Shown here: piece by piece, positions 4,145 through 53,180 of the stretch
Position numbering within the stretch: the first letter of the stretch is position 1
How the letters are laid out: every line of letters begins with the position of its first letter
NCBI GenBank assembly: GCA_037447655.1
Contig: JBBHKE010000743.1
Location: 186,001-250,000 of the forward strand
Length of the DNA: 64,000 bases
Reading direction: 5' to 3'
Source: Zygnema cylindricum
Taxonomy: Eukaryota; Streptophyta; Zygnematophyceae; Zygnematales; Zygnemataceae
Translations under genes and position numbers: made by a program
Notes under the pieces: generated by a model
Databases searched by the model: none
The model's input: the letters and a program-made list of their open reading frames with translations, nothing else
Told to the model about the DNA's origin: nothing

Positions 4145-4800
4145 ATTTACCGTACGCATTTCCCTTTTGGTGTTTTACGGAGAGTGAGGTAAGGAAATAA
4201 TGATAATGGAAGTGAGAGAGTGAGCGAGTTGAAGTGAGAATGAAAGTGAGAATGAGAGAAAGTGTTACGTGAGAGTGACAGCGAGAGTGAGAGCGCGAAT
4301 TAGATTTAGAGTGAGAGTGTTTGTAAGAGTAAAAGTGCAGGTGAGAGTGAGTGAGAGTGACGGGGTGAGAGTGAGAGTAAGAGTGGCAATTAGAGTGGGA
4401 ATGAAAGTGAGAGTAAGAGTGCGAGCGAGAGTGAAGGTAAGAGTGAGAGTGAGAAGAGAGTGAAAGTGGGAGTGAGAATGAGAGTGAGAGTGGTAGTGAG
4501 AGTGAGAGTGAGAATGAGAGAAAGTGTTCGGTGAGAGTGAGAGTGAGAATGGGAGAAAGTGTTCAGTGAGAGTGAGAGTAGAAACGAGGGATAATGTGGA
4601 GAGAGAGAGAGTGTGAGAGTGAGAATGAGAGCTAGTGTGAGTGCGAGAGTGAGATTGGGAGTGAGAGCGAGAGTGAGATATAACAGTAAGAGCGAGAGTG
4701 AGAGTGACGAAAGATATGGTGACAATGAAAGTGAGAGAGGAAGTTGAAGTGAGGGTGAGAGTAAGAATGAGAGGACATGTTAGGTGAGTGAGAGCGAAAG
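4145..4800. repeat. GAGAGT hexamer-type array, purine-rich plus strand
   Basis: Plus-strand runs of GAGAGT, GTGAGA and GAATGAGA variants fill the interval. The same word family forms a much larger array at 50100-52330. The long minus-strand open frame here reads Leu-Thr and Ser-His repeats and is a by-product of a period divisible by three. Confidence 0.9.
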
Positions 4801-4821
4801 TGAGAGTGGTAATTACATTAC

Positions 4822-5243
4822 TAGTTTCGTAACCAAGGGCACAAAAGAGAATTAAAACAAATAAAAAAAGAGAGAAAATAGGTGAAATGCAATGTTGGCT
4901 CGTCCTAGAGCCCGCGAAGGTGGCAAAGAGCCACATTAATTAGATTATCTTTAACTCTTTTGCCGTCAGCCCCCCCCAAAGTTAACACTCTTTTAGGGGA
5001 AACCTAAACCACCTTCAAAAAAATCCAGCCTACAAAATTATCAAAAATATCATTTTTCTGCCGCATCCATTAAACAAAAAACCCAGGCTAGAAACGTCGT
5101 TGTCGACTAACATAACAGCCACCCCTATAGTGAGAATACCAAAACTGATCTTTGTGTTGGCCCGCTTGCAAATTTCCCATGGCTATTGAAATCTCCCGAT
5201 GAAAAACCTACGCTCGAGCAGTAATTAGCCGCTCCACTGTCCC
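4822..5243 (-). pseudogene. Ty3/gypsy 3' pol fragment, offset copy A
   Basis: This interval is a diverged direct copy of 5415-5842. Shared landmarks are TAGTTTCGTAACCAAGGGCA, the block around GTTGGCTCGTCCT, the AGGGGAAACCT block and CGCTCGAGCAGTAATTA. By comparison with copy B it covers the post-integrase (GPY/F-like) region and the first part of the PHD finger on the minus strand. It is cut off at both sides by the GAGAGT array and a C-homopolymer (5244-5260). No open frame survives. Confidence 0.7.
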
Positions 5244-5269
5244 ACCCCCCCCCCCCCCTTAGGTCTTTG

Positions 5270-6350
5270 CAAGCCCTCAAAACCGAGGCTCAAACCCCCA
5301 TCTCACACTCCCCACAAAACCAAGGTCTGCCAAGTTGGTCCCCACCCGCCGACTCCGTAGGCAAGCAAGAAGAATGCCAAGCTCGAGTGCACGCCACACA
5401 TAATAATTTTTTTGTAGTTTCGTAACCAAGGGCACACAAGGGAGAATTAGAACAAACAAGAAGAGAGGTAAAGTAGGTGAAATGCAATGTTGGCTCGTCC
5501 TCGAGCCCGCGAAGGTGGCAAGACGCCACATTAATTTGATAATCTTTAACTCTCTTCTCGTCAACCCCCTCCAAAGTCAACACTCCTTTAGGGGAAACCT
5601 CAACCACCTTCAACATAATTCGGCTTGCTGAAATATCCAAAGTATCATTTTTGAGCCGCATCCGATACACAAAAAACCCGGGTTGGAAATGTCATTGTCG
5701 AGGAACATAACAGACACTCCTACAATGAGAATACCTAAGTTGATCTTAGTGTTGGGTCGCTTGCAAATTGCCCATGGATATGAGAATCTCCCGATTAAAA
5801 ACCTGCGCTCGAGCAGTAATTAACCGCTCCACTGTCCCATTACTATCCATCTCGGGCAAGACGGTGGCTTGGGCGAGGTGGATCCTGGAAGCATAGGATG
5901 CCTACCAAACATGACGTGACATGACTGTGATAGTGAAGAGAAGAATTTCTACTAAACCTGTAGCGTATAGCAATCCAAAGCACCATTCGATTCCTATCCC
6001 CCATATCCTCCTCGAATGCATATTTTTGGAGTGCTCTCTTAACTATTTGGACACAACGTTCAGCTAACCCATCAACTCGAGGATGATCTCTACTACTAAG
6101 CCGGTGATCAATCAAACATTGCTCCATCAAAGTCGAAAAATCCCTTACAAATTTGGAACCCTGATTAGTCAAAACTTCCGTTAGGGCCCCAAACCGAGTA
6201 AAAACTCATTGTAAAAAGGCGTCGGCCACAGACTTACACTCTTTCAGAGGTCACACCACAATCTTGAATCGACTTAGAAAAATGCTCTATCATCACAAGA
6301 CGACTGGTCAAAAGAGGCCATAGCAAGTCGAATGGCCAACGGTAAAAAAT
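5270..6350 (-). pseudogene. Ty3/gypsy integrase core, GPY/F-like region and PHD finger (copy B)
   Basis: Read on the minus strand from about 6345, this fragment matches a gypsy integrase catalytic core. A TNQGSKF block stands at the usual T-D-x-G position, followed by HRLSSRDHP, GLAERCVQ and KRAL (6172-5990). Downstream (5670-5500) comes a segment resembling the post-integrase GPY/F region (LKVVEVSPKGVLTLEG). A PHD-finger pattern follows (about 5465-5285): LLCVACTRAWHSSCL, then WFCGEC. Gag, protease and RT are missing. The same order, integrase then PHD, occurs in the plus-strand element at 16064-17611. The integrase Asp of the TDxG block reads Asn. The first zinc ligands of the PHD finger are not in a standard CxxC. 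This is a dead fragment. Confidence 0.75.
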
Positions 6351-6399
6351 TCCCTAATAGGAAGATAATGTAATTTGTAATGTTGTGTATTGATAAAAA

Positions 6400-6570
6400 A
6401 AATTATCGCGATTATACGAATATCGATAGTTATCGGTTATCCAGCGGTCAGAGGTTCCGATATATCGATTTGAGACTAACAAATTTCATATCGGCGATAA
6501 CTTCAAAAATATATAGTACAATTTTTTTGTACTTCATTTTATACTGTGTTATACTATGTACAGCGTGGCA
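6400..6570. repeat. Dispersed repeat with CGATATATCG motif, copy 1
   Basis: The block holds TTATCGCGATTA, TTATCGGTTATC, CCGATATATCG, CAACAAATTTCATATCGGCG-like and AATATATAGTAC words. The same words in the same order and orientation recur at 59358-59560, so this is a dispersed family. No coding capacity is visible. Confidence 0.6.
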
Positions 6571-7490: not shown

Positions 7491-8348
7491 AATGAACCTA
7501 CACGATTTATTTATGTGACGTCACGGACTCACACGTGCGGAATCTGAAAAACGATTCTATGACAAAAAGTACAGAAAACAGGACAGAAGAAATGCGACCT
7601 TTTGCGGCTGAATAGTGACACGTAGCATCATATGATAAGACCACTCATAGAATATGTTTCACAAGATAGTGAACACACAAAGATATAAAATGCATCTAGG
7701 CATTAGAGATAGATATTTGACACAGACATAACATCATATAGAATTCAGATATGACATTTATTTTGAATCCTTTGTACAGAGATTGAAAAGATTAGTCCTT
7801 AGCAAGATAAATCAACTTTATTAGAATTAGAAAGTTCAACGAACAATTTGTTCTTTGTGGATCTTATTTTATTAATCAAATCAAAGTTGTCTAAACCCGT
7901 CTCTCTCTAATCTACCCTATCTATGCCTTTTCCTTGCCTTTTTTCTTCTCTGATCTACTACCGTGACTTTTTAAAGTCCACCTAGCTGTGTATGTTTGTG
8001 ACGTGACTAATTTAGCCTGAAGCCACGAGCTACGGTGATTGTCCCAAAGTGATAGGCTATGGGCCCACCGCTATGTGGCCTTAGAGATTTCAACCGTTCA
8101 GATCTAAAGATGAGGAGATTTAGGGCTAAAGAGGCCTACGACAAGAGGATTCCAAAAATTGAGTCAGTTGAGGATGCGAAGTTGACTCCCATAAGGCTGC
8201 ATCAGCAACAAACCAAACAGAGGATCAAAAAGTGTTTGTGAGAAATCTAGGTGGAGAGACAAGACATTACATATCCTGCCCTACAACGCCTAACATGTAC
8301 CAAGTCACACGAGTGTCATGGTCACGGAAGACAGTGAGGAGGGAGCAT
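7491..8348. other. No recognised gene
   Basis: One 60-codon open frame (8059-8241) of basic composition has no recognisable motif. The rest shows no LTR, RNA gene or tandem repeat. The interval ends at the 5' LTR of the gypsy element. Confidence 0.5.
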
Positions 8349-9609
8349 TGTCATGCCGCATCTCGTTGGCCACCTTACTTGTTTATATTTAGATTTTAGG
8401 ATAGGCGGCCGCCACACTAATTTTCATTTGGGTGATATTTAGGTTTCGCAAGTTCGTACATACTTGCGTTGGCAGTAATTTCCGTCTACGACAAGTTAAA
8501 CCGTCCGTACATACCTATGTTGGCCGTAATTTCAGTCGACGACGAGTTTGACTTTACGACTTAAATTTCCCATGATTCTCGCTTACAACAACTTATTTTT
8601 CTCGGATTCTTCGCCGACGACTTACTTCCAAATTCGCGACCTTACAATTAAACTTATCGTACCTGCATCTCCCGGAATTCTGGCCGACGGCGAATTTGTC
8701 GCTTCGAGCGAAAAAGCATCTTGATCGTCAACGTGGAAATATACGAGTTTTGAATGGTGACATTTGGACCGTTGACGCGAGTGATAACCAACCCGACTGT
8801 TAGTTCTGACGACGCTACGCGATTGGACTATTTTAATTCGTGAACCATTTGGAGATTCACACATTCACACATAGATAGGAAGGGTTTTTATCCGTAGGTT
8901 ATAGATTCTGTAGCATAGGGCATAAGATTTTGGCCGCCTATTGGCTAAATCCAATGTAGACGCAAATACTTACATAGCATGTTGTAATCTTATTGGTTTG
9001 TTTTCCCTAGGCGTAGGCCTCGGTACTTAGTTGATTTTAGACGATTTTCTGTACAAAATTTTCAAATGTTGGAATTATATTTTCAGCATAAAAGATTTTG
9101 TGCAGCCATCTTTTTCTTTGTAAAATTTTCCGGACAGCTTAGAGGCTATTTTCTGTCTCAGCGTGAAGCGTCTGGTTTCTATTACATTATTAATCTCTTG
9201 AAAAGCCTTGCATATTAATCTATACGGCTTCGGCCAACACCAACACGGTTTCCCTTCAACTCTTTTCGTCCGTTTGAGTGGATTTCAATCGCGTCCTCAT
9301 AACACAAACTTCTGTTCTCGACTGTGGCTGAACTTAAATTAGTGTGGAAGTTGCATGTTGGAAATATCATTTTGTTGTTTTTATTTCTTGTGATTGTGTA
9401 TTTATTTCTATTTGACTTATCCACATCTTTTGAGTTTGGTTATCTCAAACCTCATAAATGTTTTGCATATTGTCATTTTCAATTTTTGTTTTCTGTCTCG
9501 GTTGATTCTATTTTGATTTATTCTCTTTAAGTCTAAATCCAGATTGTCTTCGACAGGATAAATCCTGCAAAGAATATAAATAGACCGTAGGGCCTAGTGG
9601 CCATCCATC
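8349..9609 (+). repeat. 5' LTR of the gypsy element
   Basis: The LTR begins TGTCATGCCGCATCTCG and matches 17792-19050 along its length, including GGATAGGCGGCCGCCACAC, two TCCGTACATACCT words and GAATATAAATAGACCGT near the end. Homology to the other LTR stops after GGCCATCCATC. The true LTR may extend further, because a TTTAAAATAAAGATAAATATAT stretch with polyadenylation-like AATAAA follows at 9665-9690. A frame of about 68 codons near 9324-9530 is shared by both LTRs but has no ATG start and probably reflects LTR homology only. Confidence 0.85.
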
Positions 9610-9659
9610 GGCTTAGTATTCATGCACTTGAAAATTGTATTTTTTCTTCTCTCTTGTTT

Positions 9660-10110
9660 TTGTTTAAAATAAAGATAAATATATATAAATATATATTTAT
9701 ATTTATATATATATATATATTATAATCACATTTTCTCGACATTGGTCAACATTGTAGCACATTTGGCTCAATTGATGCAATTTTCGAAACATACCTTCAC
9801 ATTTTTATCCTTAGTTACTATCATTGTGTCATTTTGATCATACATTGTTGGACATATGGTCATATTTGCAGACATTATAGGACATTGGAAAAATTTTGCA
9901 CATTTCTTGCAATTTTTGCACATTTCTTGCAATTTTTGCACGTTTTGGCACATTTTTGCAAAATTTATGCAATTTCTGTACATTTCAGCAGATTGTGCAC
10001 ATTGCTTCCAATTTGTGCACATTTAGTCAAATTGTAACACATTTCTTCGTATTTCCAAACATTTCTTTCAGTTTCACACTTCTCCAATCAATTTTCAACA
10101 TTGCTTAAGA
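9660..10110. repeat. TA-rich tract and TGCACATTT/TGCAATTT micro-repeat
   Basis: An AT/TA dinucleotide run (9675-9722) is followed by about 350 bp of ~19 bp units mixing GCACATTTCT and GCAATTTTT words. The short Cys/Phe/His-rich frames on either strand are by-products of the repeat. Confidence 0.7.
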
Positions 10111-11214
10111 TTGTTGCCAAATTCTTGGATATTCACTTGTTTTGGTGAACTATTTTCCACCCTAACTTGTCTTGTGTGTGTGTGCGTTGCATTTTTTACT
10201 CCAACCTGACTTTATATATGAGGTGACCGGTTGACTTCCGTATTTCGCAAGGAGTGAAAAAAAATAAGCAAAATCGATTGGGAGTTTTGCAAAACTCGAA
10301 CTGTAGCGATCAGGTGCAGTTCACTTTTGACAATCACCAGTTTGTTGTAAGTGTTATGTAGGTATCACAATGCCTTACGGATGCAAGAGCGTGTTAGGAA
10401 AGTTGGCTAATCGTTAGAGGAAACGAGATTTGAGTGGATTGCTCGAATCCACTCATATTGAGAATTGCATTTTTCCAGCTTTCCATGCTTGTTATTTGGC
10501 CTTGAGTGGCGTTGGCTGAGTTTGCTTTGTTTGGTGTGAGATTTCTTCCTTAGATCTTGCCGTTGGTGGCATTGATTAGTTCATTTTTGGATTGTGTCAC
10601 TGTAGATCTGCACTTGTGAGTACTTGGATAGTAAGTTATTTGTCTTTATAGATCTGGCCCTTCGGCATTGTCCCTTTGTTTGCAGAGTACAAAGTTTCGG
10701 TAATACGGCTTCTTGATAGATCTGGCCAACGAGACCTTGTTAGAGATTGATTAGCTGATTGGAAAAGAGAGTGGTGTGGCTTAGCATTTGAAGCATATCG
10801 TATAGATCGATTTTGCTATCCGGTCGTTATTTGGTTTTATCATTTTTTATACCCACCAATTGGGATAATCTCGATTATCTTTTTAGAACTACCCGATCGT
10901 CAACCTCTTTTAAGCCCACAGATTCAAGAACATCAGACTTACCTAATCTTTTGGACCATCTTTCCCGGGATATCTTGGGTCAAATATTCCTATTAGTCCG
11001 ATCGTCTCTCACCTCAGTATCTTCTTTATCATCAGTCTCTTCCACACTTTTCGAGGAAGAATTTGACCACAATTCTCTTGATGGGTCGGATTCCAATTCA
11101 TTATCTTTTTGGTTTCCACAACTTACAAATTAATTATTAGCCCCACTCATTCCATTAGTGGACATGGCTTCCACATCTGAGAGAGGGGGTCGGGTTCATT
11201 TCTGTTTTTGAGGA
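10111..11214 (+). other. Gypsy 5' leader / possible N-terminal gag region
   Basis: The word TAGATCTG recurs (near 10612, 10658 and 10717). A 106-codon Ser-rich frame (10813-11133) of uncertain reality precedes gag. No primer-binding site complementary to a known tRNA 3' end was recognised. Confidence 0.4.
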
Positions 11215-12150
11215 ATGAAGGACACAATGACCCTATCTTATTTCTGTATGTTATTCGATACTGAAATGCGAGATTTTGCATTCCAGTATAAGGATCGGTT
11301 TGATCTACAGGTTGCTTTCTCTCTTTTAGGCCGTTACCTCCGCGGTTCGGCCCCTACTTATTATTCCTACGATTATGCCTTCGTACTTGCGATGATGCTG
11401 TTTTCTCCAGCTTTTGCTGGGAGTCATGCTATTAAAAGACAACAAAAAATTCCTTATCAATCGGCTATCCTGGAAGTCTTTGATCTGAATGGCGATGTTA
11501 TTACCGCAGTTGCAAAAATACCGCAACAGCTTGCTATAGCCGTACGTGTTGGAATCCCGACACGACCAGCGATGACGATCCCTATACTGGATCCGCTCTC
11601 AATCATGTTTGAAATGTTGAAAGCGGAATACCGTACGCAAAACCTTGACCAAGATCGCTAGTTGATGAACTTTGAACGGAAATCAGGAGAGACCGGCCTT
11701 TTCCAGGCGTGCTCGTATGAAAGCTCTTCGTGAAGCATTGTCCGATTTGATGTCGGATGCTGAAGCTGTCCAAAAATTTGTAGGACAGTTTCCAAGTCAG
11801 TCTAAAAAATTTATCCAGAGTCACCCGACTCAAACGTACGGCTTGAAGTTCATTTTCGACCAAACTGCCCAGCATACTGTGGAAAATGAAATGAAAAATT
11901 GTTGGTGGGAAGCCCATGACCGTCCTAAAGCGGTCTCGAAAGAACCGATTGTTCCACCATAAAACAATTCTCGTCTTAACAACTGGAGTTCTAAGGTCCG
12001 GGCCATGGGAACCCCACCAGTAACTCCTAGAAATAAATTATGTTTTCGATGTGGGAGAACGGGGCATGATGCCCGAATGTGTCCAGACAAAACTGCTACC
12101 TATACACTTTGCAAGCAAACAAGACATTATGTTCAACGTTGTCAATAAAA
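11215..12150 (+). pseudogene. gag: Gypsy gag (capsid/nucleocapsid), frameshifted
   Basis: A frame opening at 11215 (MKDTMTLSYFCMLFDTEMRD) continues in another frame from about 11672 (Arg/Ala-rich, with EALSDLMSDAEAVQKFVGQF) and stops at 11960. In that second frame, past the stop, a CCHC zinc knuckle CFRCGRTGHDARMC sits at 12041-12082. A degenerate second Cys/His cluster follows to 12150. Position directly upstream of the protease and the nucleocapsid-type knuckle identify it as gag. At least one frameshift (near 11660) and one stop disable it. Confidence 0.75.
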
Positions 12151-12302
12151 AACCAAAATTTATCTTATCGAACCAAATTAAGGGTGGTTATATTCCCGCT
12201 CGATCGACAAGACCAATTCAACCGATTAAAAAACCTGAAAAAGACACCACTCCACCTAAGGTATCTAGAAGAGATTGAGAACGTTTGGAAATGTAAGACC
12301 AA

Positions 12303-13160
12303 ATGGCGGTCATGATCAAAGAGTATTTCGCAGCCTTCATAGCTGAAATGAAGCCAAAATTCACAGACATGGCTCGCACTGTTGTACACATGCCCATGTT
12401 GGCATGTAGAATCTTACGAGATTCCACCGTCCAACAACGAGAGGCTACGTTCGATAAAGGTTCGACCGATCACAACCGTGACGGTAAAACTTTTAACACG
12501 CGTATTCCGTTGTCATTTACTAAAAAACCTTGTCATCCCATGCCCGAAACCGCTTCAACCATCGCGGCTGAAGATCTCGACATAGTGGATCGAACCATAC
12601 ATAAAGCACATTGCGTGAAAGAACGCTTGTACATTCTATCTACTATGATTTACGACACTCCAAAACTCTCTTCTACCTTCGATAGCTCAGCTGCAGCCGT
12701 CGCTTTACAAGCACTGCAAGTGCACAAAAATCTTGCTCCTATTCAGCCTATTTCCGTAGAGGAGCCAAATTCCCTCGATCCTCACATCAGATTTTTAGAT
12801 AATGGGAAGGGTTCATTATTGATCAATGGTATAGCCTCTTCCTTACCCCTCATGAATACGGTTGCAAAGACGGTGATATTGGGCTATAGCTTTGCAATCA
12901 AGCTTGGTCTAACTCTGGACAAGCCTAAGCCCACTGCGACTTGCTTGTTAACATCAAAGGGTACAACCGAGCCAGTCTTAGGAATCACTGAGGAATCGCT
13001 CATCTTCCGGTTCCAGAATGGAAAGAACACAGACTTTGCAAAGATCTCGGTTCACGCTCTGGTCACTAAATGTAGTGACTATGAATGCCTAGTGGGACAA
13101 GAGGTTATATTTCGTGTAGAGGGTGGAGATGACATGCATGATCAGACATTTTTTTTATAG
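12303..13160 (+). pseudogene. Gypsy aspartic protease region with altered active site
   Basis: This 285-codon open frame lies between gag and the methyltransferase. Around residues 175-215 the pattern matches a retropepsin: LLINGIASSLPL, then LMNTVAKTVI where the family has L-L-D-T/S-G-A, then GYSFAIKLGL. The catalytic Asp reads Asn (AAT, 12855-12857) and the Gly reads Val (GTT, 12861-12863). The N-terminal ~170 residues are a linker without recognised domains. Although open, the frame could not give an active protease if the alignment is right. Confidence 0.65.
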
Positions 13161-13518
13161 GCCCACTAACTTCCCAGAACGCAAAATCTGCATTCTGCTA
13201 ATTTCTGCTAGGAAACCCATGCGTGTTATGGCGCATTAGGCCACGTTCATATTGGCATTTTCAAGGAATTCTGTGGGGGCCGAAATACTTTATTCATTGC
13301 CAACAGAAAAAATTCTGCCCGATAGTTCTTACTTGCCAAAATTTTTTAGTTACCCAAGATTTATTGTAGATACGAGGGAATTTGATCGCATCTATAACCA
13401 AACTTTGTAAATTCCACTTTCTCCAGTCTCTCCTCCAATCCCAATCCCTATAGACTCGTTTGGGTTTTTTCCGTTTAATTGGAATCTGGTCCAATTAAGA
13501 CCTCATCCAAATGGATTG
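13161..13518 (+). other. Degenerate linker between protease and methyltransferase
   Basis: No open frame of note and no recognised motif. Its position inside the polyprotein suggests decayed coding sequence. Confidence 0.4.
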
Positions 13519-14472
13519 GTGATTTTGGACCTCTTCGCTCGAATTGGCACTTCTCTCCTTTTTTGTCTACAAAATGGATTATTTATCCGATTTTATTATT
13601 ATCTGTCGAGATTGATCCTTTAGCACGAAAAACACAAGTACATCATTGTAATCTGTTGCATTTCCAATACCCGCATTTGCTACCAAAATACGCATACGAA
13701 CATATTCACACTGTCCTCCCACAAGACATCTGGATTGTGGGCAGCCATCATTTACTTGATATTAGTCCAATCGCTCTAGTTTTTGGCCGATGGGTGTGCC
13801 AAGGAATGTCGTGGTCCGCGAAAGGTCATGGTTTGGCCGATCCCCGCACCAAATTATTTTTTGAATTAGTTCGCATCTTGCATTTCCTACAAAATTTAAA
13901 ATATCCTACGGGATATATCTTGGAAAATGTCGCGGTCTATAACGATCAAGACCCACGGTCTTCGCTGATTATTAACGGATCGAAAAATTAATTGGTCCGC
14001 CCCTAATTATCGATGTCGCTCGCCATGGTTCACAAGCACACCGGGTTCGTTCCAAATGGACGAACGTGATTGATATTGGTCGACTCTGTGAGGCTATTGT
14101 TCGACTGCGCGAGGCTAACCTGTCTGTTCGTCATCCTCCCACAAATATTCCTGTTTCTTTTCTTCCTTTCCATAAGGCGCAACCTTTCGTTTAAAAGGAC
14201 TGTCCCCCTAATTTCAATATCAATATCCCGAGTCAACCTCTCAAGGTTCTTCCTGCCTTATTTTCCTACCGACATTCGCATGCATTCTCTAATGACGGTC
14301 CTGGCATGCTCCAAAACATTCATACCAGTGAGCTCGAAGAGCGTACCTTTACGGAGCGAGAACACCTCCTACATTTCATCCTTGGCACTACAGCCGCTAT
14401 TAGCCTTACAAAACGTCAAAGATGCACTTTATTAGGTTATGTCATAGACCTGCGATTTTGTCTTTTGTTTTA
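13519..14472 (+). pseudogene. Cytosine-5 DNA methyltransferase domain carried by the gypsy element
   Basis: The signature motifs of C5 DNA methyltransferases appear in order, split over three frames. Motif I (SAM binding) is LDLFARIGTSLL at about 13525-13560, where the family has D-L-F-x-G-x-G. Motif II-like SVEIDP lies near 13605. A motif IV equivalent WVCQGMSWSAKG starts at 13791, with the catalytic-type Cys codon at 13797-13799 and the usual preceding Pro read as Val. GLADPRTKLFFELVRIL follows. Motif VI is ENV at 13923-13931. A motif VIII-like GSQAHRVRSKWTN lies at about 14027-14065. A C-terminal block has TEREHLLHF, GTTAAISLTKRQR and LLGYVID (about 14355-14455), as expected for motifs IX-X. 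The enzyme would transfer methyl from SAM to cytosine C5. Frameshifts near 13590 and 13990 and a stop at 14192 show decay. The length (~318 aa) fits a bare catalytic domain without targeting modules. Confidence 0.85.
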
Positions 14473-15052
14473 GGTCTTAGTTTTGCAGCTGGTCGCCACT
14501 CTTAGGCATATCCGTCTCAACCAGCTGGGCGGGGGAATGAATCACTAAGTAAATTGTTTCGTCCCACTCTTAAAGGGACCACATTTAAATTTTTCCTTTT
14601 TCCTTCTCCAATTCCACTGGTTCCAGAAATCTCTATCTACAATTTCCTCAATCCTAGCCATATGTCTTGGTCTATCCTTGCGTACACGGTTGTCCAGTTT
14701 GCAAGTTCTATGCATAATCCACCCACTCATCATTGAACTGCTGCTTTTCCAACACGCAGTTGAAATTATTCGGTTAATTGCCTTAAACAGACACCTGTGG
14801 CTTACGAGTTAGGACAAACGCTTATCGTAGATGAGTTGTTGGCCTTTGCACAAGCCATAGAGGCCATGACAACTGAGAATCCCGATGCTCCAAAATGGAA
14901 ATTCGACACCAATTTAACAAAGGTTTAACAAAAATTATTGAACGACGTAGAATTATTAAACGTCGTAGTTTTACGGAATGTCGATGCCTTTGCTTTTTCA
15001 ATGAACAATCTGGAACGTCATATTAGCTATAAGATGTCGATAGATATCGAAG
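14473..15052 (+). other. Linker between methyltransferase and reverse transcriptase
   Basis: Degenerate polyprotein sequence. The last 150 bp read, with stops, toward the RT N-terminus (a segment near 15040-15085 resembles the stretch before the first RT block). No separate gene is seen. Confidence 0.45.
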
Positions 15053-16020
15053 ATGACCGCCCGATCTTTAAACCGAAACATCGTCTGTCGGAAAACTGAA
15101 TGGGAAATGGTAGACAAACGATTTGCCGAACTAGAGGAAGTTAGCCTAATCCATCGGTCAGATTCCACATTTGTAGCTCCCACCGTCATGCCTCGGAAAA
15201 ATGATTGTGAGGGTAATTTTACCGACTGTCGAATGTGCGGTGATTATCGTGAACTAAATGCTAAAACTGTTCAAAATTGTCATCCCATGCCTCTTGCCAA
15301 AGAAATATTTGATCACGTAGGCGGGGCGAAGTATTTTAATATCTTTGACCTCCGTATGGGATTCAGTTAAATTGAGATAGAGGAAAAAAACCGACGTAAA
15401 ACTGCCTTTTGGGGTAGTAACGGCCGATGGGAATGGGCCGTAATGCCATTCGAACAGAAAAATGCTCCAACGGTATTTCAAAAAGTCATGGACTCAGTTC
15501 TCGGTGGTTGTAAGTTTGCTAGATGTTACATCGATGACCTCATCATTGCCTCCGCTACTAGCGAAGAGCACGCAGCTCACATCGAATGGGTATTGATTAA
15601 ATTAAAAAAGGTCGGATTAAAGTGTCATCTTGCGAAATACACCTTTGGAGCCGAGGGAGTACCTTACCTCGACCATTTTATCTCGCCTGAAAAGATCACT
15701 CCTCTCGAAGCAAAGGTAGAGGCAATTAGTAAATGGCTGGCTCCCACAGAGCTCATAAGCATGCGAGTCTTTTCTCGGGGAATATCTAGTCGCGATTTGG
15801 GGAGTCGTTCACTCCGTCATTATTTGTATGGAAAGCCTTTCACACTTCTAATTGACCATCAACCCTTACATTGGCTGTTGACTAACGATAAGCTTTTCGA
15901 GAAGCTAGTCTGATGGGCTTTAATTTTGCAAGAATATGACGTTGAAATAAATCACCGACCTGATCTGCTTAGTCTAAACGCGGACGGAATATCCCGAAAT
16001 CCTTTGCCCGGAACAACGGA
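15053..16020 (+). pseudogene. pol: Gypsy reverse transcriptase with truncated RNase H
   Basis: RT blocks are clear. They include KRFAELEEVSLIHRSDSTF, CGDYRELNAKT, YFNIFDLRMGFS, KTAFWGSNGRWEWAVMPF, and the polymerase box YIDD at 15527-15538 followed by LIIAS. A TAA at 15368-15370 interrupts the block where the family has Gln. After the thumb (about 15750) the sequence jumps to HYLYGKPFTLLIDHQPLHWL and, after a TGA at 15911-15913, to the LQEYDVEINHRP/ADGISRNP end of RNase H. The connection and the front of RNase H (roughly 150 residues, including most catalytic acids) are deleted. The RT catalytic residues themselves are intact. Confidence 0.9.
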
Positions 16021-16063
16021 TAACAAAGTTTGACAAGATTTCGACGACGACGATGTTCGGGTC

Positions 16064-16960
16064 ATGTCAGTGGGTTCTTATCTTACTAACCATCTGGCCT
16101 CTATTCTGAACCCTCGTCCCGCCACAAATCCTTGGCGTGATGGGCCTCTCATTTTTTTCTTATTCTCCCAGATTGTCAGGTCTAGCACTACCACTGACGA
16201 TGAAGACAGAGTGAAAAAGAGAGCCAAATATTACTTTTGGCTCAGAGGATGTTTAGTTCAGTTGTTGGCAGACGGAAGCCATAGACACGTCCCTCGTCCT
16301 ACTGAGCGGTTTTCTCTAATTAAACACATTGACACCGAGCTTGGTCACTAGGGTACTAAGCAAACGTTAAGCCTAGTTCAGACACGGTATTGGTGGTTAG
16401 GAATACTAGCCGTTGTTGCTTCCATTCTACAGAAGTGTGCCACTTGCGACCGTCTCCGAACTTCTTTCGCTAATCGGCAAACTACGCTTCAACCTCTACC
16501 CTTTAGGGGTTTATTCTATCAATGGTCGGTCGATCTGGCCGGACCTTTTCCCATTAAACGTAGAGGAAAACAATACATCATGATTATGATCCAAAATTTT
16601 AGTAAGTGGGTAGAAGTCGTTACTTTGCCTCACAAGACATCAAAGTTAACCATCCGAGCCTTTAAGAACATGTCACTATGATATACGGTGCCCCAGCCGA
16701 GGTCTTTACGGATCAATGTACAGAATTTCGGGGACAATTTCAAGAGATGCTAGATGAGAATCTCATCGATCATCGTCGTACTAGTCGCGATCACCCTCAA
16801 TTCAATGGCTAGGCTGAACGTAAAGTCCAGACATTTAAGCGTGCCTTGCGTAAGCATTGCTTTAAAAAACACATTTCATTTTGGGACGAGTCCCTCGGCT
16901 ACATTACCATGGGATATCGCATGTCAGTTTAAGCTAGTTAGGCTAGTTTCAGCGAGTGTT
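16064..16960 (+). pseudogene. Gypsy integrase (H2C2 and DDE core), interrupted
   Basis: The zinc-binding H2C2 module spans HIDTELGH (16325-16348), a TAG at 16349, RYWWLGI and CATC (16436-16447). The catalytic core follows in shifted frames: YQWSVDLAGPFP (first Asp), VFTDQCTEFRG (second Asp) near 16710, then HRRTSRDHPQFNG, a TAG at 16810-16812 and AERKVQ with the Glu. The layout equals the minus-strand fragment at 5843-6350, so both come from the same family. Several frameshifts disable it. Confidence 0.85.
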
Positions 16961-17059
16961 ATGTTTTATTTGTGCGAGAATCGTTGCTCGGTCGCAATAT
17001 TCAGAAAGCTGCACGTTTTCGACTTTCGCTGATGTAAGACACTATCTTTATGGAAGAAC

Positions 17060-17611
17060 TCACTCGTGGTGCTTTGCTTTTTGCCCGTGAAATGCCGATG
17101 GCTTTTGATAATATGCAGATTGTCTAGCATTAAGACACACTTCAGTTTTGCCACAAGTCGAAGCGGCAGTTACCGGTCGCAACAGAAGCCCTATCGGGTG
17201 GGAGACTTTGTGTATTGTTTCGCAGACAATCTTTTGACACTTTGGACACAGATGTTTCAGCACACATCTTACGGATTATCGAGGTCGATCCGAATAGAAT
17301 GTTGGACAAAGAACGGACACACGAACTTTTCGAGAGCACTTCAAGAATTGTGCTCCATGTTATTTACCAGATTTATCGCAAGATATGGATTCCACGACAG
17401 TAAGTACCTTTTGCCATCGATCAGACGAGAAACTACCATGTTACTTTGTGATCATTGCAATCAAGGGTTTCACATAACGTGTTTGGTGCCACCATTGTTG
17501 GCAATTCCGGATGGTCATTGGTTTTGTCACGGATGTCGCGAGCTTCTGGTCGTGTTGGCCAGCTCCTTTGTCGGTTTAAGAGCTGGGGGGGGGGAGAATA
17601 AACCAATCTGA
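17060..17611 (+). pseudogene. Post-integrase GPY/F-like region followed by a PHD finger
   Basis: From about 17215 a segment reads RRQSFDTLDTDVSAHILRIIEVDPNRML, shortened here to its key words DTLD, HILRIIEV and RTHELFE. It parallels the post-integrase region of the copy at 5270-6350. Then MLLCDHCNQGFHITCL (Cys codons 17447 and 17456) and WFCHGC (17525-17536) give the second half of a C4-H-C3 PHD finger, with the typical PPLLAIPDGHW spacer. The expected first Cys pair lies just upstream in another frame (CHRSDEK near 17412), and one of its cysteines appears lost. PHD fingers read histone H3 tails, so a targeting role for integration is plausible but inferred. Confidence 0.75.
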
Positions 17612-17790
17612 CCATAACCAGCTAAGTCTTTGACCCTTTTTTTTCTTCCACTTTGGTTGTTGTTTTATTTATCCATTTTTCACTTTTATGTCTTATTTCA
17701 TTCAAAATAACTTGTCATCATTTGGGTTTAAGTGGAGCACAACTGAAGATATTGCATGCATATTCACGTTATTTAACACATGCACTACAG
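17606..17790 (+). repeat. 3' end of gypsy internal region (duplicated at 19051-19235)
   Basis: The block from CTGACCATAACCAGCTAAG to TTAACACATGCAC immediately precedes the 3' LTR and recurs, with scattered differences, directly after it. It contains the presumed polypurine-tract area, but no clean tract adjoins the LTR. Confidence 0.7.
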
Positions 17791-17791
17791 T

Positions 17792-19050
17792 TGTAATGCG
17801 CATCTCGTCGACCACCTTACTTGTTTATATTTAGGTTTTAGGATGGGCGGCCGCCACACTAATTTGCATTTGGGTGTTATATGGTTTCGCAGGTTCGTAC
17901 ATACTTGCGTTGGTTGTAATTTTTGTCTACGACAAGTTTGACCGTCCGTACATACCTACGTTGGCCGTAATTTTTGTCGACGACGAGTTTGACTATACGA
18001 ATACATTTCCCCTAATTCTCGCTTACGACAACTTGTAACGTACTGCTTACTTTTCTGATATTCTCCGCCGACAATTTACTTTCGAATTCGAAACCGTACA
18101 TATAAACTTATCCTTCCTACATCTCCCGGATTCCAGCTGACTGCGAATTTATCGCTTCGAGCAAAGGAGCATCTCGACCGTCAACGCGGAAATATACGAG
18201 TTTCGAAAGGTGACATTTGGACCGTTGACGCGAGTGACAGACAAACCGACTATTAGTTCTGACGACGCTACGCGATTGGACTATTTTAAGTCGTGAATCA
18301 TTTGGAGGTTCACGCGTTCACACGTAGATAGGAAGGGTTTAAATCGTAGGTTTTGGGTTTTGTAACGTAGGGCATAGGATTGTGGTCGCCTATTGGCTGA
18401 ATCCAAATACTTACATTGCACGCTGCAATCTAATTGGTATGTTTTCGCTAGGCGTAGGCCTTGGTACTTAGTTGATTTTGGATGATTTCTTGTACACAAT
18501 TTGCAAGTGGAAGAATTATGTTTTCAGTATTGAAGATTATCTGCAACCATATTTTTCATTGTAAAATTGTCCGGACAGCTTAGAGGCGATTTTCTGCCTT
18601 AGCATGAAGTGACTAGTTTCTATTACAGTATAAATCTTTTGTAAAGCCTTACATATTAATTTATACGGCTTCGGCCAACACGTGCACGGTTTCCGTCCAA
18701 CTCTTTTCGTCCGTTTGAGTGGATTTCGATCTCGTCCTCGTAACACAAACTTCTGTTCTTCACTGTGGCCGAACTTAAATTAGTGTGGAATTTGCATGTT
18801 GGGAATAACATTTTGTTGTTTTTATTTTTTGTGATTGTGTATTTATTTATATTTGGCTTATGCTCATCTTTTGAGTTTAGTTATCTCAAACCTCATAAGT
18901 GTTTTGCATATTATAATTTTCAGTTTTTGTTTTCCGTCTCGGTTGTTTCTATTTTGATTTATTCTCTTTAAGTCTAAATTTAGATTGTCTTCGATAGGAT
19001 AACTCCTGTAAGGAATATAAATAGACCGTGGGGCCTAGTGGCCATCCATC
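17792..19050 (+). repeat. 3' LTR of the gypsy element
   Basis: The LTR begins TGTAATGCGCATCTCG and ends in the homology block GAATATAAATAGACCGT...GGCCATCCATC. It matches the 5' LTR throughout, with many substitutions and a few short indels. It passes straight into a second copy of the 3' internal end instead of unrelated flanking DNA. Confidence 0.85.
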
Positions 19051-19235
19051 ACCCTGACCATAACAAGCTAAATCGTTGACCTTTCTTTTTCTTCCGCGTT
19101 GCCTAAAGATGTATTTATCCATTTTTCTTTTATATGTCTTATTTCATTCACAATAACTTGTCATCATTTTGGTTCAAGTGGAGCACAACTGATGATATTA
19201 CATGCATATTCACATTATTTAACACATGCACGAGA
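19051..19235 (+). repeat. Second copy of the gypsy 3' internal end, downstream of the 3' LTR
   Basis: This interval repeats 17606-17790 (CTGACCATAACAAGCTAAAT, TTTCATTCACAATAACTTGTC, TGGAGCACAACTGATGATAT, TTAACACATGCAC). The arrangement internal-end / LTR / internal-end suggests a tandem element or a recombination product. No third LTR follows. Confidence 0.75.
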
Positions 19236-21486
19236 GCATGCAAGGATGATCGAGAAGGAGAGGAGTATAAGAGGCTTCAAAAATGGACCACCTCAAGCTC
19301 AAATCTATAAACGTCAAACAGATTTCAAGAGATGTTTTCTCTAAAATTAAACATGCTCAAAACCCCCCTATCATCTCTTATGGGGCCAAAACGCCCATCA
19401 CACCATCAACCACCCACACCATTCATACATTCCTAGCAACTCAGTCTGCAACCACACTCACCGTGTTGGTTCAGAAGGATCTGGCACGATGGAGGAGCGA
19501 GGTGGCTTACCAGTCGGAGGTGAAGACCGACATCAATAAATCACACCAAGTCGTGGAATACAACATATTTCTGTCTGCAAGAGCAAGCAGAGACAGTGAC
19601 ACAGGAGAAACGGACAGGGTCAGAAATCGAACTAACATCTGCACAAATCTTGTGAAACTCTTAAGAATGAGGAGCGTCACATCGCAGTACGCAAAGAGCA
19701 TACCACTGATCCAAAATTTGCAATAAACGAGGGCACAAACATCGCAACACTCAACAAAAGCAAAATGGTGACTTTCACCGAAATAGGTGCAGAAGCTTAC
19801 CAATAGAGATCTGCAGATCGCAACCGAGAGGTTGCAGACGGAAAAGTGTCCAATCGTATTGGGTGGGTACAGATGAGGAAACTGCAGTCAAACAAGGACA
19901 AGGACCTTAGTATCACCAACAACATCTTGATCTTAACAACAAATCAAAAAAGCAGATCCGAAACATTATCGATCAGAAAAGATCACCAAGGACCACCGCT
20001 CACTAAAAAAAACAGTGTAACTGTGGGAGGAAAAGCAAGGAGAGGAGAAGAACTTGCAAGAGAAGGCCAATCATCAAGTCACAGGCAACAAGCACCGACT
20101 CTATTCGAAAGATGACCGCTAGTCTCCTCCACTATTTCCATTTCCACCAACAGATTCTCGAATGGAATCAAAACCCTCAACAATTCAGATTATGCAAACC
20201 CGCCACACCGACAAAAGACGAGTTAACTTGCCACACCGACAAAAGACGAGGCAAGTGTGTAAAAATCCCATGAGTAAGTCAGATAGGGGACAGATCACAT
20301 CCAAAAGCAACGTCATGATAGAGATAAGTCAAACTGGCAAAAAATTAGAGAATCTTAAATCAAAAGTAGAATTTTTACATGGCGATAAAACTGAAAGATT
20401 GATCTGAAAAGGCATCAAAATAAAACAAAACATGATACATCCTCACACTGAAAATAGCTTAGAGATGCTAATCAGTGGAAGTTCCAATACTCACCAAGTA
20501 GAAACGACTGAAAGAGTGCCGAAAGAATCGTCCAATGCTAAAACTAGAGGTAGCCACAACACTATAGTTATCGGCGACATGAGGAGTGACCTCTGTCATG
20601 GTCTTCAAGGAAAAATGTCCAAAACTAGGAAGAATATGCAAAATGAGAGTAATCGTCTAATGCTACAGCTAGAGGGAGCCGCAGCACTATAGTTGTCGAC
20701 GACATGAGGAGTGAGTTTCGTCATAATTACCAAGGCAAAATATCCAAAACTGGGAAGAATCTGCAATATGATAGTAGACCCATTAGAATCCATATGGTTG
20801 AAGGTGACAAACGGAGAAAATTGGTAGTACTAAAAAGAAGGCATCGTTTTACCATGGGAACAAAAAACAGAAGGTAACACACAAAACCAGAAGGGGATCA
20901 AATAGCAGAGTCATAGAAAGCAGTGGGAGAGCGATCAGAGATTTGCAACAGAAGATCATAGGTGCAAACCAAGAGAATCGATATCGCCCAAACCGAAACC
21001 AAAAGAAGCCTTCACGACTGTAAGCCTCCATAAAGTCACAAGTCAACTAGTTGAAAGAGAAAGGGAACGATGCTCACTCATAGTGAATGACAAAAGTCTT
21101 GCTGTGAAAGAGAATTCCGCATTAGAGTCAACATCATCATAAAGCTCACCAATCTTTCATCCACACAAAGAGAAAGACACAAATAAAAAAATGATAGAGA
21201 ACTTGGAATTTGAACAAGAGGACCTCAATTTACATAGAGGCAATGGAGGCAAAATGACAAATCAAGGAAAGATGAATAGAAACTTACCATTCGGCTATTA
21301 CAAGTGTCAAAGAATAACGTATCTCGCCACCGCCTGCTCGCATAGAGGAGCTCCACGAATAAAAGTAACCTCTAGCATAATGACTCGAGAAAAATATAAG
21401 ATTTCCATGAAATCACTGAATGACTTAAGAAAAATGTTAGATTTCGTGAAATTCGGGATTCGGTCTATCGCATAATAGGGAAAATT
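19236..21486 (+). other. Unassigned sequence with degenerate coding look
   Basis: There are several Lys/Thr/Ser-rich open frames (19283-19726, 147 codons; 19846-20115; 20162-20407; 20432-20692; 21191-21475) but no domain I recognise. The plus strand is purine-rich compared with its surroundings and the frames follow one another in one direction, so this may be a decayed gene or element ORF. A 125 bp tandem pair lies inside it at 20521-20770. Confidence 0.4.
20521..20770. repeat. Tandem pair of a 125 bp unit
   Basis: TCCAATGCTAAAACTAGAGG at 20531 recurs as TCTAATGCTACAGCTAGAGG at 20656, followed in both by CACTATAGTT, GACATGAGGAGTGA and CCAAAACT. Two diverged copies are present. Confidence 0.75.
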
Positions 21487-30960: not shown

Positions 30961-31099
30961 AATTTTCAGAATTGAAAATTTATTACATATTTTATCAAGT
31001 ATTTCTATTTTTTTTTTTGGGTTCCCATTTTGCGATTTGACGCATATTTGCACTTTTTTACGTAGTAGATGGAGCAGTCCCTCATTACTGGGAGATCGT

Positions 31100-32475
31100 A
31101 ATTTGCCTAAGTGTTGGAATCCGTGTACGCGCTGTTTGAAACATTTTGAAATTTGGCCAAGTACCGGAATCCGTGTACGGACCGTTTGACAAACCTCGAA
31201 ATTTGGCTAAGTATTAGAATCTTTATACGCGCGGTTGACATACCTCGAAATTTGGCTAAGTACCGGAATCCGTATAAACGCTGTTTGACACACCTCCAAA
31301 TTTGGCTAAGTACCGCAATCCGTGTACGTGCCGTTTGAAACACCTCCAAATTTGGCTAAGACTTAACCGTGTACGCCTGCCGACACACCTCCAAATTTGG
31401 CTAAGAACCAATCCGGTAGCGCCGTTTGAAACACTGATATTTGGCTAAGACCGAATCTGTGTACCGCTTTGCTAGAACTTGAAATTGGCTAAGACTAATC
31501 CGTGTATGGCTGTTTGAAACACCTCCAATTTGGCTAAGTACCGGTCCGTGTACGCCTGTTTGACACACTCCAAATTTGCAAACCAACTGTAATGTACGTT
31601 GAAATACTCGATATTTGGCATCAAAATTGTGTTTCCCCGGCACTTGAAATTGGCAAGACCAATCCGTACGCGTCGTTTGCAACACCTCCAAATTTGGCTA
31701 AGTACCGAAATACGTGTACGGTCGTTTGAAAGACCTCGAAACTTGGTTAAGTACCAAAATTTGTGTACGCGCCGTATGAAACACCTCGAAATTTGGCTAA
31801 GTATCGAAATCCGTGTACAAGCCGTTTGATATACCTCGAAATTTAGCTAAGTAACGGAATCCGTGTACGCGCTGTTTGAAACACCTCCAAATTTGGCTAA
31901 GTACCGGAATCCGTGTACGCGTCGTTTGAAACACCTCCAAATTTGGCTAAGTACCGGAATACGTGTACGCGTCGTTTGAAAGACCTCGAAATTTGGCTAA
32001 GTACCAAAATTTGTGTACGCGCCGTATGAAACACTTCGAAATTTGGCTAAGTACCGGAATCCGTGTACGCGCCGTTTGATACACCTCGAAATTTGGCTAA
32101 GTACCGGAATCCGTGTAGGCGCCGTTTGCAACACGTCGAAATTTGGCTAAGTACCGGAATCCGTATACGCGCCGTTTGAAACACTTTCAAATTTGGCTAA
32201 GTACCGGAATCCGTGTACGCGCCGTTTGAAACACCTCGAAATTTGACTAAGTATTGGAATCCATGTACGCAGCGTTTGACACGCCTCTAAATTTGGCTAA
32301 GTACCGGAATCCGTGTACGCGTCGTTTGAAACACCTCGAAATATGGCTAAGTATCGGAATACGTGTACGCGCCGTTTGAAACACCTCGAAATTTGGCTTA
32401 CCGAAATCCGAGTACGCGCCGTTTGAAAGACCTCGAAATTTGGCTAAGTACCGCAATCCGTGTACGCCGATTTTG
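31100..32475. repeat. 50 bp satellite, about 27 copies
   Basis: The unit contains AATTTGGCTAAGTACCGGAA, TCCGTGTACGCG and CGTTTGAAACACCTC, with a period of exactly 50 in the regular part (CCGTGTACGC at 31861 and 31911). Copies between about 31360 and 31690 are shortened by many one- and two-base losses. Single-strand open frames here are translations of the repeat. Confidence 0.95.
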
Positions 32476-32489
32476 GCTAAGTGTTGGAA

Positions 32490-33195
32490 AACCTTTGAAT
32501 TCCGATATTGGGGCTTATAAAACCCAAACCCGAGAATTGGGTTTAATATCCAAACCGGTGTATTTCGATATTGGGGCTTATAAAACCCACACCCGAAAAA
32601 TCGGGCTTAATACCTAAACCGTTGTATTTCAATATTGGGGATTATAAAACCCAAACCTGAAAATTGGGTTTAATACCCAAACTGGTCAATTTTGATATAG
32701 GGGCTTATAAAACCCAAACCCGAAAATTCGGGCTTAATACCCAAACCGGTGTATTTCGATATGAGCGCTTATAAAACCCAAACCCGAAAAATTGGGCTTA
32801 GTACCCAAACCGGTGTATTTCGATATGAGCGCTTATAAAACCCAAACCCGAAAAATTGGGCTTAATACCCAAACCGGTGTATTTCGATATTGGGGCTTAT
32901 AAAACCCAAACCCGAAAAATCGAGCTTAATACCCAAACCGGTGTATTTCGATATTGTCGCTTATAAAACCCAAACTCGAAAAATCGGGCTTAATACCCAA
33001 ACCGGTGTATTTCGATATTGAGGCTTATAAAACCGAAACCCAAAAAAATGAGTTTAATACCCAAACCGGTGTATTTTGATATTGGGGCTTATAAAACCCA
33101 AACGCGAAAAATCGAGCTTAATACCCAAACCGGTGTATTTCGATATTGGGGCTTATAAAACCCAAACCCGAGAATTGAGCTTAATATCTAAGCCT
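32490..33195. repeat. 64 bp satellite with a TTATAAAACCC word in each copy
   Basis: About eleven units contain CGATATTGGGGCTTATAAAA, CCCAAACCCGAAAAAT and TTAATACCCAAACCGGTG. CGATAT at 32821 and 32885 gives a 64 bp period. After 33195 the sequence returns briefly to degenerate 50 bp units with GTGTACGCCGAGTCAAAA (to about 33310). Confidence 0.95.
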
Positions 33196-39299: not shown

Positions 39300-40366
39300 T
39301 TGATGTCTACTTCCACTCCTACTGCTAGTTCTCCTCCTACAACGGTGGTAATAGAACAACAGGTTGTGGGCCTTTCGTCAAGAATTCTTATCTTCAATGG
39401 CCAAAAGTATATTTACTGGGCGGCGACGGTTGAATCGTCGTTTAAAACTGCTGACTTATTGGGGGTTTTGGATGGCTCCCTTGATGAAACAAATCCATCT
39501 TGGGCAAAAACGAATTCAATGGCAAAGAACAATGTAATTCTTTGTATTTCATAAAATTTGGTCATGTCTCGACTGAAAATGAAGAAGTCGAGTGAGATTT
39601 AGACATCACTACAATCTGCTTTTGAGAAACCGAATGTTCAAGAGGAGTTTCTGGTGGCTGGAAAAATTTGGGGATACAAATACTCAGGAGGAACTATGGT
39701 CGAGTATTGTGACAATTTTCGTGCCTTTATTGATGCTCACTCTTCTGCAGAGGGGTCATTTCCTAAGTTTCAACAAGCAGCTTTGCTTATTAGAGGTCTC
39801 CCTAGTAGCATGAATGTTGTGTATGTTCAATTAAAGAGTCATGATAAAGCTAGCTGGTCATTTCAGTTAGCGTATAATCTTATATTGGAGGAAGAGACTA
39901 ATACTAAACTCCTTGAAAGAGAAGGAAAAGTTGAAGCATTTGCCACAGACTTTGACAAAAGAAATCAGATTAATCAGAACATGAGTCAATTTAACAAGAA
40001 TCTGAATCAGGTTAATCAAAGACAGAATAGATCATCTACTACTACTTGTTTTTATTGTTCCGAGAAGGGTCATAGATACAAGTACTGTCCTAAACTGAAG
40101 AAGGCTAAAAAAACATGTTTATACAGGCCAGGTTGGCAGGAAAGCCAGTATCACAGAGGCTTTTCTGGAAATCCTTCCCGTAGAAATGCTCTTTTCTCAG
40201 CTTTTGTAACTGATGCAGATGAGACTTTAAACTTCAATGAGCAAGAGGAGGCGGAGCTCTTTGCTATGGCGGCTGCAATGGAGGGTCTAAAAGATGCAGG
40301 ATGGATCATGGACACGGGAGCATCTGCCCACATGTGCTGGAACAAACCGGCTTTTGCAAATTTGTA
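39300..40366 (+). pseudogene. gag: Copia gag and protease
   Basis: Gag starts MSTSTPTASSPPTTVVIEQQ at 39300 and contains ILIFNGQKYIYWAATVESSF. A stop at 39552 and a frameshift precede the main open frame (39654-40366). That frame holds the CCHC knuckle CFYCSEKGHRYKYC (40047-40088) and the intact protease motif WIMDTGASAHM with the catalytic Asp at 40311. It stops at 40364-40366 inside the protease. NVLYVPDF near 40490 continues the conserved protease/pre-integrase region after the stop. Confidence 0.85.
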
Positions 40367-40659
40367 GCAAACATCTCCAATGAGTATTTACTATATTTGT
40401 GGCATGAGTGTTCAAACCTCAACTCAGGGTGATGTATCTTTGATGGTAGATGTGGGGGGAAATTCGGTAGAGAGAACCTTTCATAATGTTTTGTATGTTC
40501 CAGACTTTTAGAAAAATATATTTTCTACATCATTAGTGGAGAGCAAATGCTTTGAAGTTGTTTTGAAAGGAGGGAGACAGATGGTTAGCAAGAAAGGGAA
40601 AGAGACAGATGGTTAGCAAGAAAGGAAAAGTAGCAGTAAGAAGAACTAGAGATGCTAGC

Positions 40660-49640: not shown

Positions 49641-49690
49641 CATTAATTTGAAAAGTCTTTAATTAACCTATAATATGTAGTTACGGGAAT
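47700..49690 (+). pseudogene. Unidentified protein gene, right copy of the divergent inverted duplication
   Basis: Plus-strand segments parallel the left copy: LNKIGSLVSNPLIREWS, ELGIPTMFFS, RNRIVFGLISLKLKLP (about 48069-48116), YIDAIKSNSRFWSERIYIPN (48271 on), SEDEPTNIALLI, EWEKSHKQRLEVAVFL, and near the end TNTQKWDVPNINKQERAICF and TASTYFQAAKAIINLKSL with a stop at about 49662. An AATAAA lies at 49726. The two copies differ at many sites, so the duplication is old. The protein is unidentified; a structural or capsid-like protein of an element is one untested possibility. Confidence 0.55.

Positions 49691-51186: not shown

Positions 51187-51237
<51 letters not shown>

Positions 51238-53133: not shown

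Positions 53134-53180
<47 letters not shown>

Follow-up and report, generated by a model that had tools for sequence, protein, structure and literature searches.

A C5-cytosine methyltransferase between the protease and reverse transcriptase of a Ty3/gypsy retrotransposon family in Zygnema cylindricum

Introduction

The kind of element considered here is already known from KnitGypsy-Dnmt3 of Klebsormidium nitens, the closest described system (de Mendoza et al., 2018; PMC5890265), in which a DNA methyltransferase (DNMT) of the Dnmt3 class lies inside the pol frame of a Ty3/gypsy element, is under purifying selection and is accompanied by repeats whose structure is reported, without explanation in the text covered here, as that of DIRS elements. 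SymbioDIRS-Dnmt3, which has two domain orders, and SymbioLINE-Dnmt, both of Symbiodinium, are also described as retrotransposons with a captured DNMT (PMC5890265). Methylase-bearing retrotransposons, green algae included, are reviewed in PMC6338049, PMC12344493 repeats the KnitGypsy-Dnmt3 precedent and mentions long terminal repeat (LTR) Copia and DIRS families, and orchid Ty3/gypsy elements with an m6A demethylase domain are reported likewise to have captured a nucleic-acid-modifying enzyme, although enzyme and hosts differ (PMC9289625). Here we describe a broken Ty3/gypsy copy carrying a DNMT, and the family to which it belongs, in a 64,000-nucleotide stretch of the Zygnema cylindricum genome (contig JBBHKE010000743.1, positions 186,001 to 250,000), which we call the window and in whose coordinates positions are given. 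An earlier note on this DNA, made from its letters without database searches, had pointed to reports of methyltransferase capture by retrotransposons, and the text of PMC5890265 bears out that such a precedent exists.

As far as descriptions can be compared, the Zygnema family shares with KnitGypsy-Dnmt3 the DNMT within a Ty3/gypsy pol frame, the Dnmt3 class, purifying selection and DIRS-like repeats; it belongs to another genome, with a GC content of 41% in this window. The portion of PMC5890265 covered here contains neither ‘PHD finger’ nor ‘protease’, and no statement of the two domain orders found below, of Glu at motif IV, of a palindromic junction or of 4-bp duplications. Among the literature matches listed, no title or abstract opening describes gypsy elements with a PHD finger, with an alternative domain order or with comparable integration (PMC12344493, PMC6338049, PMC9915684, PMC12477816 and PMC11105155 were covered by term search). 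Within the literature searched, the breadth of the family, the second order and relocation of the DNMT, the PHD finger, the Glu-Cys motif and the palindromic junction with target-site duplications are new.

A methyltransferase in the pol region of a Ty3/gypsy element

The segment at 13492–14470 (+ strand) is confirmed as a C5-cytosine methyltransferase domain, broken by frameshifts and situated between the protease (PR) and reverse transcriptase (RT) of a Ty3/gypsy element occupying 8349–19235. The ordered methyltransferase motifs reported in the earlier note, whose coordinates were right within about 30 bases, are present on the + strand in four pieces and three frames: DLFARIGT in 13492–13605, VEIDP to ENV in 13605–13961, GSQAHRVRSKWTN in 13976–14191, and TEREHLLHF with LLGYVID in 14195–14470. 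The profile search which that note proposed gives a match above threshold, as Pfam DNA_methylase (PF00145) recognizes the frame at 13479–13988 (26.8 bits against a cut-off of 22; E=4.4e-6); PF00145 has no separate match in the three remaining frames scanned. A local profile built from relatives matches all four pieces in order (12.8, 101.8, 36.4 and 73.1 bits), an unbroken relative (P0001) aligns to them in the same order at 51, 43, 43 and 44% identity, and in tblastn the window DNMT matches phage C5 methyltransferases at E=6e-6.

The domain is of DNMT3 type, as its profile matches, its place in the tree and its predicted fold all indicate. Among solved structures, the catalytic domain of DNMT3A/DNMT3B is the closest both in sequence profile and in fold, and in trees built without host CMT and DRM genes the window domain groups with retroelement methyltransferases adjoining DNMT3, which is how the tree suggested in the earlier note turned out. 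Two free-standing proteins reach similar scores (P0123 97 bits, P0124 94 bits), so that eukaryotic DNMT3 is not set apart from its free-standing kin.

The rest of the element, all on the + strand, is likewise decayed and recognizable. Upstream lie a stretch at 11170–11791 (tblastn with P0001 residues 4–207, E=3e-22) that is labelled a gag remnant from its position, its match being to the P0001 region that precedes the protease, a pair of CCHC-like gag zinc knuckles read by eye at 12041–12146, and an aspartic protease remnant at 12825–13133 (60.3 bits with a local profile of relatives; 37% identical to P0001) that has no match of its own in the Pfam scan of the window frames. Downstream follow remnants of RT at 15203–15688 (pieces 15203–15364 and 15371–15688, found by Pfam and local profiles and 64% identical to P0002), of RNase H (RH) at 15806–15895 (local profile 28.8 bits; PF17917 24.7 bits, just below its cut-off of 24.8) and of a DDE integrase (IN) at 16352–16809 (local profiles 129.7 and 58.0 bits), and pol ends in a PHD finger at 17426–17539 (PF00628 E=2.9e-9; local profile 59.8 bits). 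The gypsy internal region that had been read around the DNMT, with gag and protease before it and RT and integrase after it, is thus found, with RNase H and the PHD finger added. Window and fetched copies (see below) have the Ty3/gypsy order PR-RT-RH-IN, with integrase after RT, and the polyprotein of the family reads, from its sequences, gag–protease–DNMT3-type methyltransferase–RT–RNase H–integrase–PHD finger.

Chromoviruses are Ty3/gypsy elements with a chromodomain after the integrase. The Zygnema family likewise has a chromatin-reader domain at the integrase end, here a PHD finger instead, and no chromodomain occurs among the Pfam matches of six relatives or of the window frame 17033–17608.

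Copies in the Zygnema genome

When its own genome was searched (a 353-Mb assembly of 2689 contigs), the DNMT piece gave 1197 first-look candidates, of which 150, the window’s own included, were scored and listed; open frames among the matches reach 2395 residues. Ten copies were fetched from this list, two stretches each. The order PR-DNMT-RT recurs in all ten and continues into RH-IN-PHD in nine, the DDE integrase is present in the window and 9/10 fetched copies, and the DNMT domain match is unbroken in seven, which answers the earlier note’s call for sibling copies. As the ten had been selected by their DNMT, a further 14 were chosen by RT, namely those of 150 RT matches that by eye were absent from the DNMT list (matches on both lists were not counted); the DNMT precedes RT in 11 of these, and the protease is found too in 9 of the 14.

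Purifying selection on the DNMT is clear, with few usable pairs: among the seven unbroken frames, synonymous divergence (dS) is saturated in 16 of 21 pairs, with non-synonymous divergence (dN) of 0.11–0.17, and the other five pairs give dN/dS of 0.21–0.32, the highest resting on a dS of only 0.004. For RT in seven frames, three usable pairs give 0.16–0.27, two pairs are identical and 16 are saturated. The Ka/Ks given for KnitGypsy-Dnmt3 is below 0.2 (PMC5890265), so that the five unsaturated pairs here point to purifying selection as well but do not reach that paper’s cut. Some copies have identical or nearly identical repeats, and the family was therefore probably active until recently. With many more copies in the same genome, some of them apparently young, the DNMT is a lasting component of this retrotransposon family, which has been little described.

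Relatives and domain order

P0001, a 1279-residue protein from ENA, has protease and DNMT matches after a part of about 600 residues that is gag-like by position. Its DNMT region matches 94 proteins, itself included (E up to 1e-3). The named relatives include the green algae Closterium sp. NIES-54 (P0040), Monoraphidium neglectum (P0088) and Cymbomonas tetramitiformis (P0089), to which we would add P0081, a model labelled Mesvir1 that we take to be from the green alga Mesostigma viride; none is named as K. nitens among the matches listed.

Judged by local profiles from whichever domains each protein contains, the relatives fall into two orders. The first, that of the window (PR-DNMT or DNMT-RT), is found in 19/94, with P0026 doubtful, and the second, with the DNMT between RNase H and integrase (RH-DNMT or DNMT-IN), in 74/94, leaving P0094 undecided. 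The full series RT-RH-DNMT-IN-PHD is present in 32 of the 74 second-order proteins and DNMT-RT-RH-IN-PHD in three of the 19 first-order ones, and a PHD finger accompanies 57 of the 65 relatives that have an integrase match. Precomputed domain annotation adds a G-patch (PF01585) in four second-order relatives (P0029, P0031, P0039 and P0053).

One first-order locus comes from a 9285-bp contig (L026) binned in a cyanobacterial metagenome-assembled genome (MAG): PR, preceded by some 500 residues, shares an open frame with DNMT, and after a stop RT-RH-IN-PHD follows in the same frame. Its ends overlap by 127 bp, as expected of an assembled repeat unit. Both L026 (Synechococcales MAG) and P0060 (Minisyncoccia MAG) are eukaryotic-type retroelement sequences filed under bacteria, probably as contamination. 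L026 alone was used from the GTDB scan, which gave 49 loci, 48 of them with bacterial titles and low identity. In IMG/VR the DNMT and RT pieces of the window gave no match, and repeat A1 (see below) gave 25 loci.

In the careful tree, the 14 second-order rows included form a clade (100/97) nested within the first order, with 94/86 for the branch joining them to P0010/P0019. A wider tree (109 rows) requires two changes of order, one of them P0026; the RT tree divides the orders by a single change, with a support of only 54 for the split; and the integrase tree does not separate them. Because the second order is nested within the first, these phylogenies suggest that the DNMT probably moved once inside pol and was inherited vertically thereafter, the first order being the older.

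Terminal repeats and integration

The window element is bounded by two pairs of repeats in an unusual arrangement. Repeat A1 (8349–9609), at the 5′ end, begins with TGTC and is 85.8% identical to repeat A2 at 17791–19050 (87.1% without gap columns), while repeat B1 (17608–17789) recurs as B2 (19051–19235), the right end of the element, with 87.1% identity between 17608–17785 and 19054–19231; all four are on the + strand. The order is thus A-coding-B-A-B, and it is shared by 7/10 fetched copies. Best A/A pieces are 80–100% identical in seven copies and B/B pieces 79–100% in eight; as to the remaining three, C1407 has B-A-B with no upstream A in its fetched stretch, and C2577 and C262 show neither in theirs.

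Elements of the family start with TGTC and finish with GACA, for which B2 of the window reads GAGA. The window element is flanked by GCAT on both sides (8345–8348 and 19236–19239), and exact 4-bp target-site duplications occur in six of the eight copies examined, the window included (AAGG, CCCT, CCCC, TTGG, CCAT and GCAT). The other two comprise one copy with three of four duplication letters and one (C2526) with a decayed right end; four further fetched copies, whose left ends and junctions fall outside their stretches, are excluded from this count. The B1/A2 junction, which in the window (17786–17795) is decayed, is the exact palindrome GACAGCTGTC in 7/10 fetched copies; the palindrome also occurs once in the upstream stretch of C262, away from any B/A junction. 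A polypurine-tract-like G-run lies just 5′ of B1 in the window (17585–17594, + strand), directly 5′ of it in six of the seven fetched copies printed; in the remaining copy it lies farther 5′ of the point where B1 is called to begin. B2 opens with the letters found after the G-run and directly abuts the end of A2. Directly 5′ of the G-run, the window (17559–17586) and most fetched copies printed have, by eye, an inverted repeat CCAGCTC...GAGCTGG, possibly an RNA hairpin at the polypurine tract.

These observations would fit integration from a circle. Assuming that the G-run serves as plus-strand primer and that A1 ends at the primer site, the LTR would be B-GC-A and A2|B2 would be an LTR–LTR junction; integrase would then open a circle bearing two LTRs within one of them, at the palindrome GACA-GC-TGTC, yielding an integrated A-coding-B-A-B with target duplications.

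We know of no DIRS-type element with a target-site duplication, whereas the family here has exact 4-bp duplications. The Symbiodinium elements are DIRS with a tyrosine recombinase, or LINE (PMC5890265), in contrast to the DDE integrase and target duplications found here; no tyrosine recombinase is among the Pfam matches (E up to 0.01) of six relatives, the window not having been searched for one specifically.

A possible function

DNMT3 enzymes produce 5-methylcytosine, PHD fingers read histone H3, and DNMT3A itself has an ADD domain that reads H3 alongside its methyltransferase, a pairing of writer and reader which the polyprotein described here parallels. It is plausible that the element’s DNMT marks its own cDNA, or chromatin at the landing site, with 5-methylcytosine, and that the PHD finger at the integrase end steers insertion by reading histone H3. 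A new insertion would then resemble the methylated repeats around it and not unmethylated foreign DNA.

The catalytic equipment was compared in a motif alignment of 86 rows, from which P0094 and short domain rows (up to about 250 residues) are left out. The catalytic Cys is present in 86/86. It is preceded by Glu in 65 rows, by Pro in 19 and by Ser or Val in one each, the Val being that of the window, so that motif IV is mostly ECQ and not PCQ; the Pro-Cys of DNMT3A/DNMT3B, expected of the DNMT3 family, occurs in only 19/86, and the Glu-Cys form lies within a retroelement polyprotein. In the 16 rows printed, the motif VI Glu is kept in 16, Glu-Asn in 14 and HRxR in 16, and motif I is more variable. 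The seven genome copies with an unbroken domain match all have GWECQG and AHRVR, with LENVA in five and LENIA in two. The predicted fold spans the whole catalytic domain. The window copy has Arg for Gly in motif I (DLFARIG for DLFAGIG), a change that would probably leave it without activity even if its reading frame were intact.

Taken as a whole, we read the segment as the DNMT of an old, broken Ty3/gypsy copy and as a recurrent, selected part of its family, which may act through 5-methylcytosine marking, steering by the PHD finger and insertion from a circle; we would put the probability of this reading at about 0.85. Several results weigh against it. Glu replaces the Pro of the PC motif in 65/86 domains and in all seven unbroken genome copies, which may affect catalysis, and in yeast no activity was obtained from the KnitGypsy DNMT, a result judged inconclusive in that paper (PMC5890265). 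CpG observed/expected is 0.97 in the interior of the window element, 0.85–1.04 in the fetched copies and 0.91 in the whole window, and such slight depletion speaks against heavy, lasting CpG methylation; A1 and A2 differ by transitions at 25/84 CpGs (two cytosines each) and at 63/675 other C or G positions, an excess that is mild only. Three of the 14 RT-chosen copies (C624, C122 and C2450) show neither DNMT nor protease within 2.6 kb. Finally, for the circle model, which is drawn from sequence, no tRNA-like primer site was recognized by eye.

Competing explanations

The DNMT might methylate RNA, or host DNA outside the element so as to interfere with host silencing, in place of the element’s cDNA. 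The weak CpG depletion would fit such a target, but DNMT3-type enzymes belong to a DNA methyltransferase family and in both orders the DNMT lies beside RT or integrase in pol, and we consider this explanation unlikely. Alternatively, with Glu in place of Pro beside the catalytic Cys, the DNMT might be kept for a non-catalytic task such as nucleic-acid binding or packaging. The residue counts given above, the Glu of all seven unbroken genome copies and the inconclusive inactivity of the K. nitens domain in yeast (PMC5890265) can be enlisted for this view; set against them are the invariant Cys, the retention of motif VI Glu, Glu-Asn and HRxR in the printed rows and a predicted fold that covers the whole catalytic domain, which together make it distinctly improbable in our estimation.

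The arrangement A-coding-B-A-B could also represent a plain LTR element that lost part of its 5′ LTR and underwent tandem recombination. Any single copy can be read in this way, and 3/10 fetched copies lack the full pattern in their stretches, but such a history would have to account for the same pattern in the window and seven other copies, with DNMT dS mostly saturated between subfamilies, for 4-bp duplications placed exactly at TGTC and GACA in six of eight copies, and for the DIRS-like repeat structure reported for KnitGypsy-Dnmt3 (PMC5890265, Fig. 4 legend); we think it very improbable. Chance insertion of a host methyltransferase gene or other mobile element into the window copy alone, for which only the decay of that copy speaks, is refuted for practical purposes by the same order in 10/10 copies of the DNMT list and in relatives from other sources and by the DNMT before RT in 11/14 RT-chosen copies; copies without the segment, which the earlier note had named as a sign of such insertion, are not the rule (3/14).

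Other features of the window

Three more remnants of the family lie in the window. One at 4770–6440 (− strand) consists of integrase and PHD finger (tblastn with P0002, E=3.9e-52; local profiles). Another at 44587–46041 (− strand; local profiles and tblastn) has a DNMT piece at 45796–46041 and, downstream, the end of RT with RNase H at 44587–45089; the DNMT precedes RNase H here, an arrangement matching the first order, though the best summed score is with a second-order protein, P0018. The last, at 48834–49677 (+ strand), comprises DNMT pieces closest to P0005 (E=2.3e-30). The latter two may count as one, because they sit in opposite arms of an inverted duplication (45823–47210 and 48012–49593; 71–74% identical), the outer parts of which carry these DNMT remnants and which perhaps represents two head-to-head copies of one unit.

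Elsewhere we note a PiggyBac-like transposase piece at 36938–37603 (PF13843, DDE_Tnp_1_7; E=1.5e-10), weak copia-type gag and pol signals under Pfam cut-offs at 39603–40367, and a tandem repeat array at 31096–33194 with a unit near 50–100 bases judging by match offsets. A GC-skewed tract at 50200–54000 (skew 0.72–0.78 over 50001–54000) and a tract at 4180–4820 match each other at roughly 65–70%, and a tRNA-Thr (AGT) gene occupies 59117–59188.

Significance

DNA methylation normally silences transposons, and a transposon that keeps a methyltransferase of its own under selection is therefore a paradox. A tentative picture, which we hold with less than even confidence, is of an old retroelement clade of green algae and metagenomes that joins a DNMT3-type writer, mostly Glu-Cys, to a PHD reader in one polyprotein, that relocated the writer once, and that inserts from circles opened at an LTR palindrome, its copies arriving permuted and possibly pre-methylated. 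That the DNMT probably moved only once and was kept in two lineages suggests that delivery beside cDNA or integrase may matter more than exact place, and the permuted repeats with target duplications put in question the usual insertion of LTR elements through linear ends. With at least 150 matches, and terminal repeats that are in some copies identical or nearly so, this genome would be a living system for studying the effects of self-methylation.
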